64,000 nt of DNA, taken from contig NZ_CP009283.1 of assembly GCF_000758625.1 (NCBI RefSeq), positions 5,405,501 through 5,469,500 of the forward strand, written 5' to 3'. This DNA comes from Paenibacillus sp. FSL R7-0273 (GTDB lineage Bacteria; Bacillota; Bacilli; Paenibacillales; Paenibacillaceae). The position numbers were made by a program, and so were the translations under genes. Below the pieces are notes generated by a model. The model was not told the DNA's origin, ran no database searches, and saw only the letters and a list, made by a program, of their open reading frames with translations. Positions 8,523 through 61,402 of the stretch are shown here, piece after piece (within the stretch, counting starts at the first letter, position 1; each line of letters opens with the position of its first letter).

Positions 8523-8669
8523 TCTATATTTCCAATATTTCTTCTTGTACCTTAAGTAAGAATAGTGTCGAATAAATGGGTAGGGCTTGTTCTATAAAGT
8601 AACCTCTGCAATTGCACAGTGACGTTGCCCCTTTACACGAACAGCACACTACAGAGCAATGTTACTTTT

Positions 8670-8880
8670 GATTCCCGCCACCAGCACCATACGAGCTAAT
8701 TCAAAGGCATTTTTGCTTTTGATTCCCGCCATCTGCGCCAAATGAGCTAATTCAAAGGCATTTTTGCCTTTGATTCACGCCGTCTGCACTATAAGTGCTA
8801 ATTCAAAGGCATTTTTGCCCTTGATTTCCCTCATCTGCACCAAACGAGTCAATCCAAAGGCATTTTTGCCTTTGATCCTC
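8670..8880. repeat. 51-bp tandem repeat array, each unit holding a hairpin
   Basis: Four units start at 8670, 8721, 8772 and 8823 with exactly 51-base spacing, and a fifth begins at 8874 but decays at once. Each unit begins GATTCCCGCC or a variant and ends with AAAGGCATTTTTGCCTTT, a stem-loop of about 8 bp with a short T loop. The hairpin is perfect in units 2 and 4 and mismatched in 1 and 3. No reading frame with a ribosome binding site crosses it. The rest of the gene-free stretch 8523-8923 shows no other recognisable feature. Confidence 0.85.
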
Positions 8881-42083: not shown

Positions 42084-42131
42084 TTATCCAGCCATCCTTT
42101 CGCTTGTACGCCCGTCCAAGCCCCCGGAAAA

Positions 42132-42164
42132 CAAAAAACTCCTTGCCCAAAGCAGGCAAGGAGT
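42132..42164 (-). terminator. pyr leader attenuator (intrinsic terminator)
   Basis: On the minus strand ACTCCTTGCC-loop-GGGCAAGGAGT is followed by TTTTTTG, about 50 bases before the pyrR start. It is the termination arm of the PyrR-controlled leader. Confidence 0.9.
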
Positions 42165-42270
42165 GAAATCCGCAGATTAAAAAAGATGGCGTGTCCGCGC
42201 GCATAAAGAGGCTATCCGTACTCATACGGATCCCATCCATTTGTCGCGAACCTCGATTCACGTTACCTTG

Positions 42271-42287
42271 CCAGCCTCACGGGACTG
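42271..42287 (-). promoter_or_regulatory. PyrR-binding loop (anti-antiterminator) in the pyr leader
   Basis: Minus-strand CAGTCCCGTGAGGCTGG, followed by CAAGG, matches the conserved PyrR recognition sequence of Bacillales (AGUCC-x-GxGAGGCU). It lies between the promoter and the attenuator. Confidence 0.8.
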
Positions 42288-42316
42288 AATTAAAGGCGCA
42301 TATTCAACTAAAGGGA

Positions 42317-42345: not shown

Positions 42346-42494
42346 ACCGGGAAAGATTTACAGGGGATGGGAGCGAACAGGTGAAGCACGTACTTGGTGC
42401 GTTTATCTGGTGCGTGTACGTGGTGCGTTTAAATAGTGCGTGTACTGTTTGGGTGCCGGGCGCTGCTGCGGGGTTTTTGGACTTCCGGCCGCTG

Positions 42495-48968: not shown

Positions 48969-51900
48969 TTAGCCTTCGATAAAGATGCCGATCGATTTGC
49001 CGCTGATATCTACTGCTTCAAAGCTATGGTCGCCGTCAAAAGCAAGCTCAGCTACCAGTACGTTATCACGCAGCACATGCTCAAAAGCAGTTACTGCCGC
49101 TTTCAGCTCGTCATCCAGCTGCAGGGTCAGGCCGATCCGCTTCTCGATTGCCAGATCCAGGCGCTTGCGGTAATCCTGCACCGCACGGATGATCTCACGC
49201 ACCCAGCCCTCCTGCTCCAGCTCAGGCGTGATTTCGGTGTTCAGCGCCACGGTCAGACCGTAGCCGGAAGCTGCAGCAAAGCCGGATTTCGCCTGCTTCT
49301 CTACCAGCAGCTCTTCTGCCGTAATCTGCAGCTCTTCGCCTTCCGGTGACACAACATTTACAACACCATCAGTAACAGCCTTACGGGTAGCATCGCTATC
49401 CATGCCCTTCAGGAAGCCTTGGATAAAGCCGACGTTTTTGCCGTATTTTTTACCTGCCACCTTGAGGTTCAGCTTCAGAGTGAAGTCGACAAAGCCGCTG
49501 TCGCTGTTCTCCAGGACAATATGCTTCACGTTGATCTCATCCTTGATGATCTCTTCGTAGTCGGCGATATCAAAGTCACGGTCCAGCGACACGATCAGCT
49601 CGGACAGCGGCTGGCGGTTCTTGATGCCGGTCTCGTTACGCACGTTGCGGGCCAGCTCGACGATACCTCTCGCGCTTTCCATATCGCGTTCCAGCTCAAG
49701 ATCGATCAGGCTTTCATCCGCTTTTGGATAATCGGCCAGATGCACGCTTTCCCCGCCGCCCAGGTTCGTAAAGATATCCTCGGACAGCATCGGTGTGAAC
49801 GGAGCCATCAGTGTAGCCGTCTTAAGCAGTACATGAGTCAGGGTGCGGTAAGCATCCAGCTTCTCTTCGCCAAGCCCGCTGCCCCAGAAACGGTCACGGG
49901 AACGGCGGATATACCAGTTGCTCAGCTCATCCACAAAGTTCTCAACCGCTTTGGACGTGTTAACGAAGTCGTTCACGGCCAGGCCTTTATCCACCAGCAG
50001 GATCAGGCTGTTCAGGCGGGACAGAATCCAGCGGTCCAGCTTGTGCTCGGATACCTTAAACGGATGCTCAGCAGGATCATAGCCGTCGATGCCGGCATAC
50101 AGCGTCAGGAACGCATGCGTATTAACGAGCGTATCCACTACCTTCGATTTAGTCTCACCGACCAGGCCGCGCGAAAAGCGTTTGTTATTCCAAGGCGCAC
50201 TGTCAGACAGGATCGCCCAGCGGAACGCATCGGTGCCGTATTCGTTCATGATCTCCCACGGGTCGATTACGTTGCCTTTGGATTTGGACATTTTTTGGCC
50301 GTTCTCATCGAAGATGTGGCCGTGGGCGATAACCGCCTTGTAAGGCGCTTTTCCCTTGAACAGCGTCGATACAGCCAGCAGGCTGTAGAACCAGCCGCGG
50401 GTCTGGTCGATCCCTTCACAGATCATATCCGCCGGATACTGGTCTTCAAAGGTCTCATTGTTCTCAAACGGATAGTGGCTCTGGGCGAACGGCATCGAGC
50501 CACTGTCGAACCATACGTCGATTACTTCCGGTGTGCGTACCATCACGCCGCCTTCACTGAACGGGCTGCGCAGCTGGATGTTATCCACATACGGCTTATG
50601 CAGCTCGATGTCCTCAGGCACCTCGCCGATGGCCATCGAACGCAGCTCCGCGATGCTGTGCGGCGCAAATTCCTTGCCCGTATCCTGGCAGACCCAAACG
50701 TTCAGCGGAGTTCCCCAGTAGCGGTTACGGCTGATGTTCCAGTCAACCAGCTCTTCCAGGAACTTGCCGAAGCGGCCTTCACGTACATGGTCAGGGTACC
50801 AGTCAACTGTATTATTGTTAGCGATCAGCTGATCCTTGATTGCTGTTGTCTGGATGAACCAGCTGTCTGTTGCATAATAGAGCAGCGGTGTATCGCAGCG
50901 CCAGCAGAACGGGTAGCTGTGCTCGTATTTCTCTTTGTTGTAGAGCAGCCCTTTTTCGGACAGCACCTTGATGATGTCCAGATCGACATCCTTCACGAAC
51001 CGTCCGGCAAAATCGCTCACTACAGCGGTATATTTACCGGAAGTGTCTACTACATTCACAAAGCTGATGCCGTTCTCGCGGCAGCTCTTGTAGTCATCCT
51101 CACCGTGTGCCGGAGCCATGTGTACGATCCCTGTACCGCTGGAATCCGTAACAAAGGATGCGCCCACGATTACATTGTGCTTCTCTGCCTTGATGTAGCT
51201 GAACGGCGGAGCGTAGCTCTGGCCGATAAAGTCAGCACCCGTGTGGGTGGACAGGATCGTGTATTCGCCCTTCAGCACTTCATCCACGAGGTTCTTCGCC
51301 AGGATGTACACGCCGTCTTCCTGCTCTGCACGTACATATTCCATCTCAGGGTTCATAGCCAGCGCCATATGCGCCGGAAGCGTCCAAGGTGTAGTCGTCC
51401 AGGCCAGCACATAGTCCCCGCTGCCTTCGAGCTTGAACTTAGCTGTAGCACTCAGGTCCTTAATGGTCTTGTAGCCCTGCGCCACCTCATGGGAGCTCAG
51501 CGTCGTCTGACAGCTAGGGCAGTACGGGCTGACGCGGTGTCCACGGTACATCAGGCCTTTGTCGTGCACAGTCGCCAGGATGTTCCATACGCTCTCGATG
51601 TACGTGTTGTCCAGCGTTACATACGGATTATCCAGGTCCGTCCAGTACCCGATCGCTTCCGTGAATTCACGCCACTGCTTCTCGTAGCCGAAGACACTGT
51701 CCTTACATTCCTTGATGAATTTCTCGATGCCGTACTCCTCGATCTCCTGCTTACCGGAGATGCCAAGCTTCTTCTGTACGCCAAGCTCAACCGGCAGGCC
51801 GTGGGTATCCCAGCCCGCTTTGCGCACGACGCGGAAGCCCTTCATCGTCTGGTAGCGGCCGATAAAGTCCTTGATTACGCGGCCCAGCACGTGCCCGATA

Positions 51901-52061
51901 TGCGGCACCCCGTTCGCTGTCGGCGGTCCTTCATAGAACACATAGTTCGGGCGGCCCGCCCGGTTCTCCATCGATTTGCGGAACGTATCTTCGTCGCTCC
52001 ATTTCTTCAGGATGCGGACATCTCTCGCCCGCGCCTTTTCTTTGACGTCTACTTTTTGCAT
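48969..52061 (-). CDS. ileS: Isoleucyl-tRNA synthetase, long (type-2-like) form
   Basis: The 1030-residue class I synthetase has HIGH at 54-57 in YEGPPTANGVPHIGH, GWDTHGLP, the editing domain, DVWFDSGS, and the KMSKS loop GQKMSKSKGNVIDP, then the anticodon-binding helices. Length and the GPPTANGVPHIGH spelling resemble the eukaryote-like type 2 IleRS rather than the roughly 920-residue type 1 enzyme of B. subtilis, whose C-terminal zinc finger is missing here. Type 2 enzymes are generally far less sensitive to mupirocin. A T-box leader lies upstream, but 800 bases away behind a repeat element. AAAGGA precedes ATG 52061 at 11 bases. Confidence 0.94.
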   Translation of the reverse strand: MQKVDVKEKARARDVRILKKWSDEDTFRKSMENRAGRPNYVFYEGPPTANGVPHIGHVLGRVIKDFIGRYQTMKGFRVVRKAGWDTHGLPVELGVQKKLGISGKQEIEEYGIEKFIKECKDSVFGYEKQWREFTEAIGYWTDLDNPYVTLDNTYIESVWNILATVHDKGLMYRGHRVSPYCPSCQTTLSSHEVAQGYKTIKDLSATAKFKLEGSGDYVLAWTTTPWTLPAHMALAMNPEMEYVRAEQEDGVYILAKNLVDEVLKGEYTILSTHTGADFIGQSYAPPFSYIKAEKHNVIVGASFVTDSSGTGIVHMAPAHGEDDYKSCRENGISFVNVVDTSGKYTAVVSDFAGRFVKDVDLDIIKVLSEKGLLYNKEKYEHSYPFCWRCDTPLLYYATDSWFIQTTAIKDQLIANNNTVDWYPDHVREGRFGKFLEELVDWNISRNRYWGTPLNVWVCQDTGKEFAPHSIAELRSMAIGEVPEDIELHKPYVDNIQLRSPFSEGGVMVRTPEVIDVWFDSGSMPFAQSHYPFENNETFEDQYPADMICEGIDQTRGWFYSLLAVSTLFKGKAPYKAVIAHGHIFDENGQKMSKSKGNVIDPWEIMNEYGTDAFRWAILSDSAPWNNKRFSRGLVGETKSKVVDTLVNTHAFLTLYAGIDGYDPAEHPFKVSEHKLDRWILSRLNSLILLVDKGLAVNDFVNTSKAVENFVDELSNWYIRRSRDRFWGSGLGEEKLDAYRTLTHVLLKTATLMAPFTPMLSEDIFTNLGGGESVHLADYPKADESLIDLELERDMESARGIVELARNVRNETGIKNRQPLSELIVSLDRDFDIADYEEIIKDEINVKHIVLENSDSGFVDFTLKLNLKVAGKKYGKNVGFIQGFLKGMDSDATRKAVTDGVVNVVSPEGEELQITAEELLVEKQAKSGFAAASGYGLTVALNTEITPELEQEGWVREIIRAVQDYRKRLDLAIEKRIGLTLQLDDELKAAVTAFEHVLRDNVLVAELAFDGDHSFEAVDISGKSIGIFIEG

Positions 52062-52116
52062 TTGAGGGTCAATCCTTTCAATGATGTAATCTTGAAACCA
52101 AGCTTCAAAAGCTTTT

Positions 52117-52859
52117 CGATCCCCCTAAATCCCCCTTAGCCAAGGGGGACCCCGAGGGCCCCGGCCCTCTGGACACCCGGAAAGTTGTCTAGCTCCGGGA
52201 CAGAGCCGGTATGGTTGTTAATTTGGTTGTAATCCGCGCTTACCGCCGCAAGCGGCCCGCTTTACCTCAAGCACGCTAGTCGCGTCTCGCGCCGTGCCCT
52301 TACTCTTGTTGGGGCACCCGCCCCGCGATCCCGTAGGGCAGCACTGGGCGGGACGCCTTGCTCTTGTTGGGGCACCCGCCCCGCGATCCCGTTAGGGCAG
52401 CACTGGGCGGGACGCCTTGCTCTTGTTGGGGCACCCGCCCCGCGATCCCGCAGGGCAGCGCTGGGCGGGACGCCTTGCTCTGTTTGGGCACCCGCCCCGC
52501 GATCCCGTTAGGGCAGCGCTGGGCGGGACGCCTTGCTCTGTTTGGGCACCCGCCCCGCGATCCCGTTAGGGCAGCGCTGGGCGGGACGCCTTGCTCTTGT
52601 TGGGGCACCCGCCCCGCGATCCCGTTAGGGCAGCGCTGGTCGGGACGCCTAAAGGCGGCGGGGCGCAGCCGCCGCGTGCCTTAAAGGCAAGGCCCCGCAG
52701 GCGTCCCCGCCAGGGGAGCCTAAGAAGGGCCGCTCCTCCCGCCGCAGTAATCCTTCCCGTCCGCCACCGTAAACTCCCTCCGCGGAGCCCTTGTTGCGGG
52801 TGTCCAGAGGGCGGCCAGCCCTTGGGGTCCCCCTTCGGAAGGGGGATTTAGGGGGATCG
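52117..52859. mobile_element. 743-bp GC-rich element with 63-bp inverted terminal repeats in the ileS leader
   Basis: The left end (52117-52179, CGATCCCCCTAAATCCCCC...) and right end (52797-52859) are reverse complements over 63 bases. The outer 21 are identical, as is the inner block GCCCTCTGGACACCCG, with one small shift between. Each end also folds on itself (CCCCCTT...AAGGGGG). Between them lie the six-copy tandem array and more G+C-rich sequence without a convincing gene. It sits 10 bases from the T-box terminator and 55 bases from the ileS start. It looks like a non-autonomous insertion; no target duplication was made out by eye. Confidence 0.7.
52299..52648. repeat. Six tandem copies of a 58-59-bp GC-rich unit
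   Basis: Units begin at 52299, 52357, 52416, 52474, 52532 and 52590. Each reads CTTGCTCTTGTTGGGGCACC, then CGCCCCGCGATCCCG, GTTAGGGCAGCG, CTGGGCGGGACGC with few changes. Units 4 and 5 share a TCTGTTTGGG variant. CCCGCCC and GGGCGGG at the two sides, and CCC-GTTA-GGG in the centre, give every unit a nested dyad. Reading frames across it are only by-products of the repeats. Confidence 0.9.
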
Positions 52860-52868
52860 CCGCACAAC

Positions 52869-53160
52869 AAAAGGAGCGTCATCCCGCCCCCAAAGGGGCG
52901 AGACGACGCTCGCGATACCACCCTAATTCATGCATGACGCACATCCTTAAGGGGAGTGAATACAGCACAATCTCAGTTCCGCACAAAATCCTGCTATGCG
53001 GGTCCGGGATAACGTCCGGCAGACGGCATAAACCTACTCACGAATGAATCGCTTCGGATCAGCTTCTAGGGGAAGATCTTCCGGTAAGGGTTGAACAATC
53101 GGCTCGCAGCACCGCCGACTCTCTGGAGAACACAACCTTATCGTACTTTGTCCCGTCATC
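52869..53160 (-). promoter_or_regulatory. T-box riboswitch leader (tRNA-Ile responsive, inferred)
   Basis: On the minus strand AGGGTGGTATCGCGAGCG (52907-52924) is a clear T-box, followed by the terminator AGCGTCGTCTCGCCCC-TTT-GGGGCGGGATGACGCT and CCTTTTG (52869-52910). Upstream are the stem-I-like region with GAGAGTCGGCGG and GCTGCGAGCCG and a possible ATC specifier in AGCTGATCCG (53056-53065). Uncharged tRNA-Ile should open the terminator and allow ileS expression. The specifier was not confirmed by folding. Confidence 0.85.
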
Positions 53161-53193
53161 GAATACATATAAACTTCACACAGATATGCTTTA

Positions 53194-53222
53194 GTTATAG
53201 ACGTTTTACGAAAAAATGTCAA
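53194..53222 (-). promoter_or_regulatory. Sigma-A promoter of the T-box/ileS transcript
   Basis: On the minus strand TTGACA (53217-53222) and TATAAC (53194-53199) are 17 bp apart, about 35-40 bases upstream of the T-box stem-I region. Confidence 0.8.
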
Positions 53223-53289
53223 CACCGCAGCCGCCTAACCGGCTTAATGCTCCATTTCCTGCTGTCCGTTTAACGCTGTCCGCTACAGC

Positions 53290-53775
53290 TCAGAGCAGAT
53301 TGTCACTGGTCTCACGGCTTTCGAGCGCGCTCCAGTCATCCTGAGAGAGCAGCTCCAGCTGAGCTTCCACCAGTGTCCGGAACCGGGTGCGGTAGATAGA
53401 AGCCTGCTTGCGCAGCTCTTCCGTTTCAATCGCAATTTTGCGGGATTTGGACAAGGCCTCGTTAATAATCCGGTCGGCGTTCTTCTCCGCTTCCTTGATG
53501 ATCAGCTGTGATTCCTTTTTGGAATTGTTCTTTACATCATCAGCCGCTTCCTGGGCGACAATGATGGTCTTAGACAAGCTTTCCTCAATGTTCACAAAAT
53601 GATCCAGACGCTCTTGAATGGACAAAAGCTGGTTTTGCAATTCTTTATTCTCGCGAATGACGCTTTCATAATCCTTAATAACCTGATCAAGAAACTCGTT
53701 AACCTCGTCCTCATCATAACCGCGGATTCTCCGGGAGAATTCCTTGTTATGTATATCGAGCGGCGTTAATGGCAT
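53290..53775 (-). CDS. divIVA: DivIVA-family cell-division/pole protein
   Basis: The 161-residue protein begins MPLTPLDIHNKEFSRRIRGYDEDEVNEFLDQVIKDYE, the membrane-curvature-binding N-terminal domain of DivIVA with the conserved F and R residues, followed by coiled coil up to about residue 140. It marks curved membrane at poles and septa and recruits division-site and sporulation partners. The start is ATG 53775, seven bases behind GGAGGT; an in-frame GTG lies inside that site. It comes just before ileS as in B. subtilis. Confidence 0.94.
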   Translation of the reverse strand: MPLTPLDIHNKEFSRRIRGYDEDEVNEFLDQVIKDYESVIRENKELQNQLLSIQERLDHFVNIEESLSKTIIVAQEAADDVKNNSKKESQLIIKEAEKNADRIINEALSKSRKIAIETEELRKQASIYRTRFRTLVEAQLELLSQDDWSALESRETSDNLL

Positions 53776-60457: not shown

Positions 60458-61402
60458 TTAATTCAAAAGCCTGATATCCTCTTCTGTAAGTCCGGTTGCA
60501 GCTTGGACCGCCTGGAGGCTAAGCCCCATCCGGAGTAAATTTGCAGCAATCTCCAGCTTGGCTTCCCGCATACCTTCTTGAAGGCCCTCTTCTTTGCCTT
60601 CTTTAATACCTTCTTTAATACCTTCTTTAATGCCTTCTTTAATGCCTTCTTCTATTCCAGCTTTTCTGCCTTCCTCCAAGCCCTTGGCAAAGCCTTCCCT
60701 TTGCGCACCATCCCTTTGCGAGGCCTCATCATGCAGAAACTTCTGACGGTCTTCATATCTGCGCCGGGCTTCGGGATTCTGGCTCAGGTATTCCAGCGTC
60801 TCCATCGCTTTTTGCAGTGCCGGTTCATTCATCTTCAGTACCTCCCAGTTCTCATTGTCTTTTCCCTTCAGAAACAGCAGCCAGTTCACCAGCCCTTCTT
60901 CTCCGGGTACAGCCGGCTTCTTCAGCTTGGGCAACTCGAGAAAATGAATTTCTATATCATCGATAAGCGGCGCACCGCTGCTGTCCTCCCGCAGATGAAA
61001 AACACTATGGGTGTGTTCATTCGGCAGCACATTATAGTTTAATATATTGATCGTGATACACTTCTTAAGCTCCGTGTACCGCCCGCCGGTCTGCAGCTGG
61101 CTCGCATAACGCTTACTCCAGTAGTAAAGCGTCCGCTTTTCCATATCATATTGGTTAAACAATTGCATTTCAATATTAATCAGCCTGCCGTCAACCGTCC
61201 TCGCCCAGATATCAAATATGGACTGCTTGTCTCCCGGATCATCTTTATCTGTGTAGGGGTTCAGCAATACCACTTCATCCAAAGGGGCAGTTCCCGCATC
61301 CTGCAGAACACGGTTCAGAAAAGCCAGCAGAACATCCTTATTAGTCTCACTTGCAAATATTCTCTTAAAAACAAAGTCTACCCGGGGGTCAAGCAATTCC
61401 AT
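60458..61402 (-). CDS. Rpn-family recombination-promoting nuclease/putative transposase
   Basis: The 314-residue protein of the PD-(D/E)xK Rpn (YhgA-like) family starts LLDPRVDFVFKRIFASETNKDVLLAFLN. Its active site is DKQSIFDIWARTVDGRLINIEMQ (D...ExQ), followed by the typical YYWSKRYASQLQTGGRY. The C-terminal part holds a run of four GIKE units (coded by 12-bp DNA repeats at 60599-60646) and LRMGLSLQAVQAATGLTEEDI. Rpn proteins nick DNA and promote RecA-independent recombination; they move often. It interrupts the usual ftsZ-spoIIGA order. ATG 61402 is behind GGGAGTGGTGG. Confidence 0.9.
   Translation of the reverse strand: MELLDPRVDFVFKRIFASETNKDVLLAFLNRVLQDAGTAPLDEVVLLNPYTDKDDPGDKQSIFDIWARTVDGRLINIEMQLFNQYDMEKRTLYYWSKRYASQLQTGGRYTELKKCITINILNYNVLPNEHTHSVFHLREDSSGAPLIDDIEIHFLELPKLKKPAVPGEEGLVNWLLFLKGKDNENWEVLKMNEPALQKAMETLEYLSQNPEARRRYEDRQKFLHDEASQRDGAQREGFAKGLEEGRKAGIEEGIKEGIKEGIKEGIKEGKEEGLQEGMREAKLEIAANLLRMGLSLQAVQAATGLTEEDIRLLN

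Follow-up and report, generated by a model that had tools for sequence, protein, structure and literature searches.

Two inverted modules of putative triplex type bracket a variable array between the T-box and ileS in Paenibacillus

The GC-rich element between the T-box leader and ileS in Paenibacillus sp. FSL R7-0273 is bounded by two inverted copies of one intergenic module of about 75 nt, built from a head hairpin and three arms (Y, R1 and R2). We consider it probable that these triplex-type modules are ancient at ileS, that they are maintained at the DNA level and bracket an array, and that the insert is tolerated by ileS. In the mechanism we propose, the mirror-symmetric purine arm R2 would let one DNA strand fold as a purine-motif intrastrand triplex, and the maintained feature would act in DNA, as a triplex that forms when the Y-R-R strand is single. 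The pair has most likely occupied its position between T-box and ileS from a time that predates the diversification of the sampled genus, and would bracket a hairpin array that expands and contracts. For ileS, the element would be a tolerated addition of about 740 nt after the T-box decision and no regulator. As judged by sequence comparison, the identity of the modules, their vertical inheritance at ileS and at three other sites, and the mirror covariation of their arms are supported, as are the conservation of the modules, which the interior does not share, and losses that include collapse to a palindromic unit.

Layout of the element and anatomy of its ends

The window is the whole 64,000-nucleotide stretch analysed here, from a genome of one contig of 7,288,921 bases. 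The T-box leader (52891..53168, minus strand) matched the RF00230 covariance model over its full length (1-219/219; E 1.3e-20) at 92.4 bits, just below the gathering score of 93, and is an ordinary member of the family; its specificity is presumably for isoleucine, as deduced from the downstream gene. A terminator-like hairpin of 17 pairs followed by CTTTTGTTGT (52874..52911, minus strand) is succeeded by the left, T-box-proximal module (52797..52867, plus strand), which points away from the interior and corresponds to profile positions 1-70 at 55.9 bits, its coordinates being calculated from distances to the start of ileS. The variable interior covers 617 nt between module boundaries (52180..52796). 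The right, ileS-proximal module (52104..52179, minus strand; profile positions 1-75, 62.3 bits) has the architecture of the left one and points to ileS, which encodes an isoleucyl-tRNA synthetase of 1030 aa (48969..52061, minus strand). Aligned without gaps, the inverted arms at 52117-52182 and 52794-52859 are 76% complementary over 66 nt, and as a BLAST match the element ends show 87% identity across 66 bases. The original prediction had described inverted ends of about 63 bp around a 617-bp interior with a tandem array, wedged between T-box and ileS. All of this was borne out, at coordinates and distances that hold, with the RF00230 match upstream and the ileS start 55 bases beyond the element.

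The tandem array (52298..52650; 6.1 units of 58-59 bp, period 58, 95% matches) carries in every unit a hairpin core on the mRNA strand, GCTGCCCT(n)CGGGATCGC. ORFs of 86-108 aa cross it, and the four that we checked had no Pfam match at E <= 0.1, as expected from the predicted lack of a recognisable gene. Within 52060-53300 no other Rfam family matched at E <= 1. Other tandem arrays in the window lie at 8667-8876 (51 bp x 4.1), at 60573-60673 (12/36 bp) and at 42390-42446 (13/26 bp), the last near a PyrR-type leader (RF00515 at 42130-42300).

Read toward the flanking gene, the module runs CGGGTGTCCAGAGGGC-loop-GCCCTyTGGGG, Y arm, loop, R1, TTT, R2, with a head hairpin of the form CCAGAGGGC..GCCCTyTGG. 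The arms are 7-8 nt long and of the TCCCCCTT or CCCTCCC type; the loop between Y and R1 is short, but long in some copies. In the left module, Y (TCCCCCTT), loop, R1 (AAGGGGGA), TTT and R2 (AGGGGGAT) span 52828..52857 on the plus strand and form a putative purine-motif intrastrand triplex. The right module has the same arms at 52119..52149 on the minus strand, with GGCT as its loop. At loci L342 and L343, and in the ileS leaders of G018, G066, G003 and others, the third arm and its tail (ATTTAGGGGGATCG) are duplicated outward past the module.

A third arm that repeats R1 directly would provide two alternative hairpins, and one that repeats it in mirror fashion fits a purine-motif intrastrand triplex. 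Module copies were gathered with a profile of 101 sequences and their arms parsed in a way that is neutral between the two registers; 281 profile matches gave 271 parsed copies, of which 24 were dropped and the remaining 247 merged into 197 distinct contexts. Compared across these 197 copies, the three arms covary. Counted from the second loop, position 4 has the combination CGG in 119 copies, TAA in 62 and TAT in 13, and position 1 has TAA in 128 and CGG in 65. Because most arms are self-mirror, the register can be read in only 20 copies; mirror register was better in 16, the two tied in 4, and direct register was better in none. A switch between alternative hairpins, with R2 as a direct copy of R1, is disfavoured by these counts. 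Part of the covariation could arise if blocks were exchanged among copies. The sequence properties of the broad BoxC/PIT/TM class were found in the module: Y-R-R arms on one strand, C.G.G, T.A.A and T.A.T triads, and mirror register. Arm type differs between the two ends at ileS, the left module being of C5 type in 66 of 68 parsed copies and the right one of C5 (24), CCCTCCC (23), TCCCTCT (5) or other (1) type; on the ileS tree, the arm type of the right module changed 6 times.

Copies beyond ileS and the history of the pair

The 14-mer GGGTGTCCAGAGGG has 8 exact matches in the source genome and its reversed control has 0, which places it beyond chance. Two of the matches are at the ileS element and six stand singly elsewhere, so that the module is present at 7 loci. 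The ends are therefore not private to the ileS element, since they have single-copy homologues in the genome and the interior has none. From their translations, we take the neighbours of the six single copies to be hisF, era, uvrA, rpsP, a znuB-like gene and an abrB-like gene. Five of the copies lie at gene starts, and all of them turn one and the same side to the start codon. At about 27 kb, beside an abrB-like gene, there is a member of this module family (L020, G000:C1:26634), which several relatives also have.

Among 100 genomes of the genus, 93 contain the 14-mer (copy numbers range from 0 to 17), and the reversed control has one match apiece in five; in the order, 73 of 198 genomes contain it. 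By profile score, at least 79 of the 120 matches listed in named genomes are module loci, of which at least 65 are in Paenibacillus, at least 10 in Cohnella, at least 2 in Saccharibacillus and at least 1 each in Bacillus and Neobacillus. In the 30 best-matching genomes for each gene, the module was found upstream of rpsP in 22, of era in 28 and of hisF in 18 (one of these a weak partial copy), in one orientation throughout. Among 98 of the 120 loci that could be used, the motif faces gene starts in 49 and gene ends in 49, a count in which small genes can be miscalled. The head hairpin GGGTGTCCAGAGGGC..GCCCTCTGG is also seen in distant taxa, among them Rhodovarius and Oscillospiraceae (L065, L081, L133, L137, L143, L158, L167 and L177), followed there by a different hairpin and by no triplex motif. 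Only loci with the completed hairpin are counted, because chance alone predicts about as many 16-mer matches.

ileS was matched in 99 of the 100 genus genomes, and 96 yielded an upstream stretch (G044, G061 and G062 had a partial ileS match and G089 none); with five stretches cut by contig ends, 91 were scorable. Both modules are present in 52 of these, some with a partial or modified right copy; 14 have the left module only, 2 the right only, 2 a collapsed palindromic unit (G016 and G072, assigned by eye) and 21 none. One of the right-only cases, G060, is a weak 13-bit remnant. All full-length left copies are inverted and lie near the T-box terminator, and all full-length right copies are forward and upstream of the start. 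The T-box core lies 81-134 nt from the start at 19 short empty sites, 393-1400 nt from it with the left or both modules and 474-1190 nt with both. An assembly error, which would have undone the original prediction, is ruled out by the single contig and by identical architecture in other assemblies.

Five changes between occupied and empty states are required on the ileS protein tree. The simplest reading makes the pair ancestral at ileS and vertically inherited, with about five losses; the direction of change is our inference, since the ileS tree has no outgroup, and remnants in G016, G072, G060 and G088 support ancestral presence and repeated loss. The original prediction had taken the element for a simple insertion bounded by inverted terminal repeats, and this part did not survive: the ends are modules found singly at other genes, and a recent insertion of that kind is rejected by the distribution in relatives together with the ileS tree. 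Empty sites were read by eye for a target-site duplication, and their flanks are too diverged to define a junction. Two genomes of a module-free clade, G032 and G033 (L255 and L254), counted among the 21 module-free sites, carry an unrelated inverted-repeat insert (GTTCAAAAAG.. / ..CTTTTTGAAC) at the same leader position, and the ileS leader of G052 holds a short stretch related to it.

The interior turns over. Across 66 occupied genomes it measures 174-1234 nt (median 506) at a median GC of 67%, and 41 interiors contain a tandem array. The close relatives G000, G087, G077 and G095 have 6, 4, 4 and 3 array units; at 4-fold sites the last three are 79-82% identical to G000, and G077 and G095 are without the right module.

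Constraint, related systems and rival explanations

Where two genomes have 23-49% identity at 4-fold ileS sites, their left modules are 72-78% and their right modules 60-76% identical (shuffled left modules, our control, align at 20%), and the 75 nt of interior flanking the modules are 38-52% identical. Identity between left and right modules is 0.793 within a genome and 0.798 across genomes, and none of 47 genomes has an own right copy that comes closer than the median left orthologue. These values indicate that the copies are not homogenised and that the ends are not co-evolving partners. Long-range pairing of the ends, which RNA folding does predict here, is disfavoured as the maintained feature by this lack of co-evolution, and also by the left copies being nearly all C5 with the right copies split among arm types.

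A closely comparable system is found in E. coli, where the main text of Holder et al. (2015; PMC4666352) describes BoxC/PIT as a class II intrastrand triplex, CCCTCNCCC N3-6 GGGNGAGGG N3 GGGNGAGGG, with 23 copies in MG1655 and five inverted pairs, each of type A plus type B; TM-ECO, with consensus arms of 9 nt, is reported there from 262 proteobacterial genomes. According to the same text, the motif forms a stable triplex in vitro and has no DMS protection in vivo. The lack of protection speaks against the reading that we prefer, and the triplex of the Paenibacillus module is to be seen as a potential structure. The E. coli loci are described as varying between strains and as highly variable locally, with a "palindrome effect" where they are paired, and no effect in vivo was seen; the TM loci are associated with local instability and showed neither promoter nor terminator activity. 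Set against this description, the Paenibacillus module shares the Y-R-R class II order with a 3-nt second loop, the intergenic position, the variable surroundings, the inverted pairs of unlike types and the single palindromic unit left by loss at paired sites. It differs in its arms of 7-8 nt rather than 9 nt, so that the strict TM-ECO consensus is not matched, in a constant head hairpin apparently absent from the description in PMC4666352, in being retained genus-wide at orthologous positions, and in its host, Paenibacillaceae rather than proteobacteria. The database of that paper covers 5246 genomes and plasmids and may list such Paenibacillus motifs; its main text contains neither the name Paenibacillus nor words starting with "covari" or "compensat". 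In literature searches combining Paenibacillus with intergenic or palindromic repeats, MITEs, triplex DNA or T-box ileS, no title concerned the element.

These observations bear on the in vivo role of bacterial intrastrand-triplex motifs. In Paenibacillus a triplex-type architecture persists at orthologous sites genus-wide, with arms that change in mirror register and copies that are not homogenised; persistence at sites, mirror covariation and no homogenisation together amount to an evolutionary test of the triplex, for which the empty sites, single modules and collapsed versions form a natural comparison set.

Short palindromic intergenic repeats in several copies, sometimes paired, are also what REP/BIME and MITE families offer, but single modules are common here, and to our knowledge those families have no mirror arm. 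REP/RAYT elements have a guide tetranucleotide at the hairpin foot. That the element is a non-autonomous, MITE-like mobile element, inserted as one unit in the ileS leader by way of true terminal inverted repeats, would agree with its inverted ends, with the several genomic copies of the end and with their intergenic sites, and the insert of G032 and G033 shows that the leader accepts insertions. We nonetheless hold this to be quite improbable, because the pair is old at ileS and its ends do not co-evolve. Nor are copies at other genes bounded by inverted repeats on both sides, as a search at E <= 0.01 gave no second module in inverse orientation within 1000 nt for any of 90 regions upstream of rpsP, era and hisF. 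The Y1 transposase PF01797, the one transposase family searched, has 0 matches in the source genome, with 5 of 14 control genomes positive. A neutral by-product, that is, functionless palindromic DNA that maintains itself by template switching and conversion, gains from the rapid turnover of the arrays here and from E. coli TM loci that PMC4666352 describes as unstable and free of promoter and terminator activity. Template switching, however, would be expected to perfect inverted and not mirror repeats, and the third arm is a mirror; orthologous copies are more alike than copies in one genome, and modules are better conserved than 4-fold sites and the adjoining interior. We therefore find this account rather improbable.

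A conserved functional leader RNA, serving mRNA stability, ribosome access or T-box read-through, would explain why 70 of 91 genomes are occupied at one site, and the RNA structure is strong, as originally predicted: the 850-nt leader folds at an MFE of -488.6 kcal/mol, against -413 +/- 5.8 for 20 shuffles. A strict hairpin core, GCTGCCCT(1-4)GGGATCGC, lies on the mRNA strand in every one of the 32 (of 96) leaders that have it; its only five other hits among scanned loci are all the ileS locus itself, with L124, L130 and L140 so assigned from a neighbouring divIVA-like gene. These 32 leaders are homologous, however, so a single strand is expected. The T-run after the T-box stem is shorter in occupied genomes (mean 4.65, n=66) than in empty ones (6.38, n=21), a difference that spans only 4-5 independent contrasts. 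Against an RNA role, the same module occurs at unrelated genes and beside gene ends, 21 of 91 T-box genomes are without it, the interior is poorly conserved, and RNA pairing would not maintain mirror symmetry. The leader match to RF00230 is itself ordinary, but the distance from core to start is far longer where modules are present. As for a conserved leader in relatives, which the original prediction had named as a contrary outcome, the ends are indeed conserved at the site and the interior is variable. We regard a leader RNA as unlikely. No second promoter inside the element, as had been suggested, came to light: sigma-70-like sites number 0 in 66 occupied leaders, where block shuffles lead one to expect 7.25, and 0 in the window. 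An effect of the element on ileS regulation is unsupported by present evidence, given no promoter-like site, no co-evolution of the ends, unrelated carrier genes and the 21 genomes without the module. Conservation at a fixed site could mean an unrecognised role in ileS expression. The reading with DNA-level maintenance of the modules is the one that we prefer, and the equal facing of gene starts and ends, taken with the report in PMC4666352 that purine-motif triplexes do not form in RNA, points to DNA.

Module direction relative to replication

Fork direction was estimated from a hisF-based origin in 34 genomes, for copies among the matches listed. Within these matches, 157 of 166 non-ileS copies in the replichore body point with the fork, as does the one copy near the terminus (1/1); the right ileS module does so in 20 of 20 cases and the left in 0 of 28. 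These copies are non-independent. By distinct flanking gene, start-facing sites number 18 with the fork and 1 against, and end-facing sites 7 with and 2 against; by eye, a spurious ORF underlies one "with" site in each class, and the left ileS module would add one end-facing "against" site. This count used 58 of 82 loci, 7 having no usable module or ORF and 17 having their nearest ORF more than 300 nt away. In this exploratory analysis, module direction follows the estimated fork at most sites. Much of the start-facing excess may only mirror leading-strand genes. If the modules merely tracked such genes, end-facing sites should lie mostly against the fork; the opposite was observed, at few sites.

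If the fork polarity is real, the Y-R-R strand would be the lagging-strand template. It is then conceivable, although we are inclined to doubt it, that the modules are replication-polar single-strand devices, with the triplex strand on the lagging-strand template, the third arm under selection, triplexes used in vivo as intergenic boundaries, and the ileS pair confining an unstable array. Kept on that template, the strand would be exposed at each fork, and selection on the third arm across the genus would mean that intrastrand triplexes are used in the living cell.

The "against" entry of G090 stems from a wrong origin estimate, as this copy scores "with" when genomes deposited from the origin are set to 1. 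The "against" copies of G065 and G070 are real modules, located at the 3' end of one gene, which we take to be agmatinase-like.
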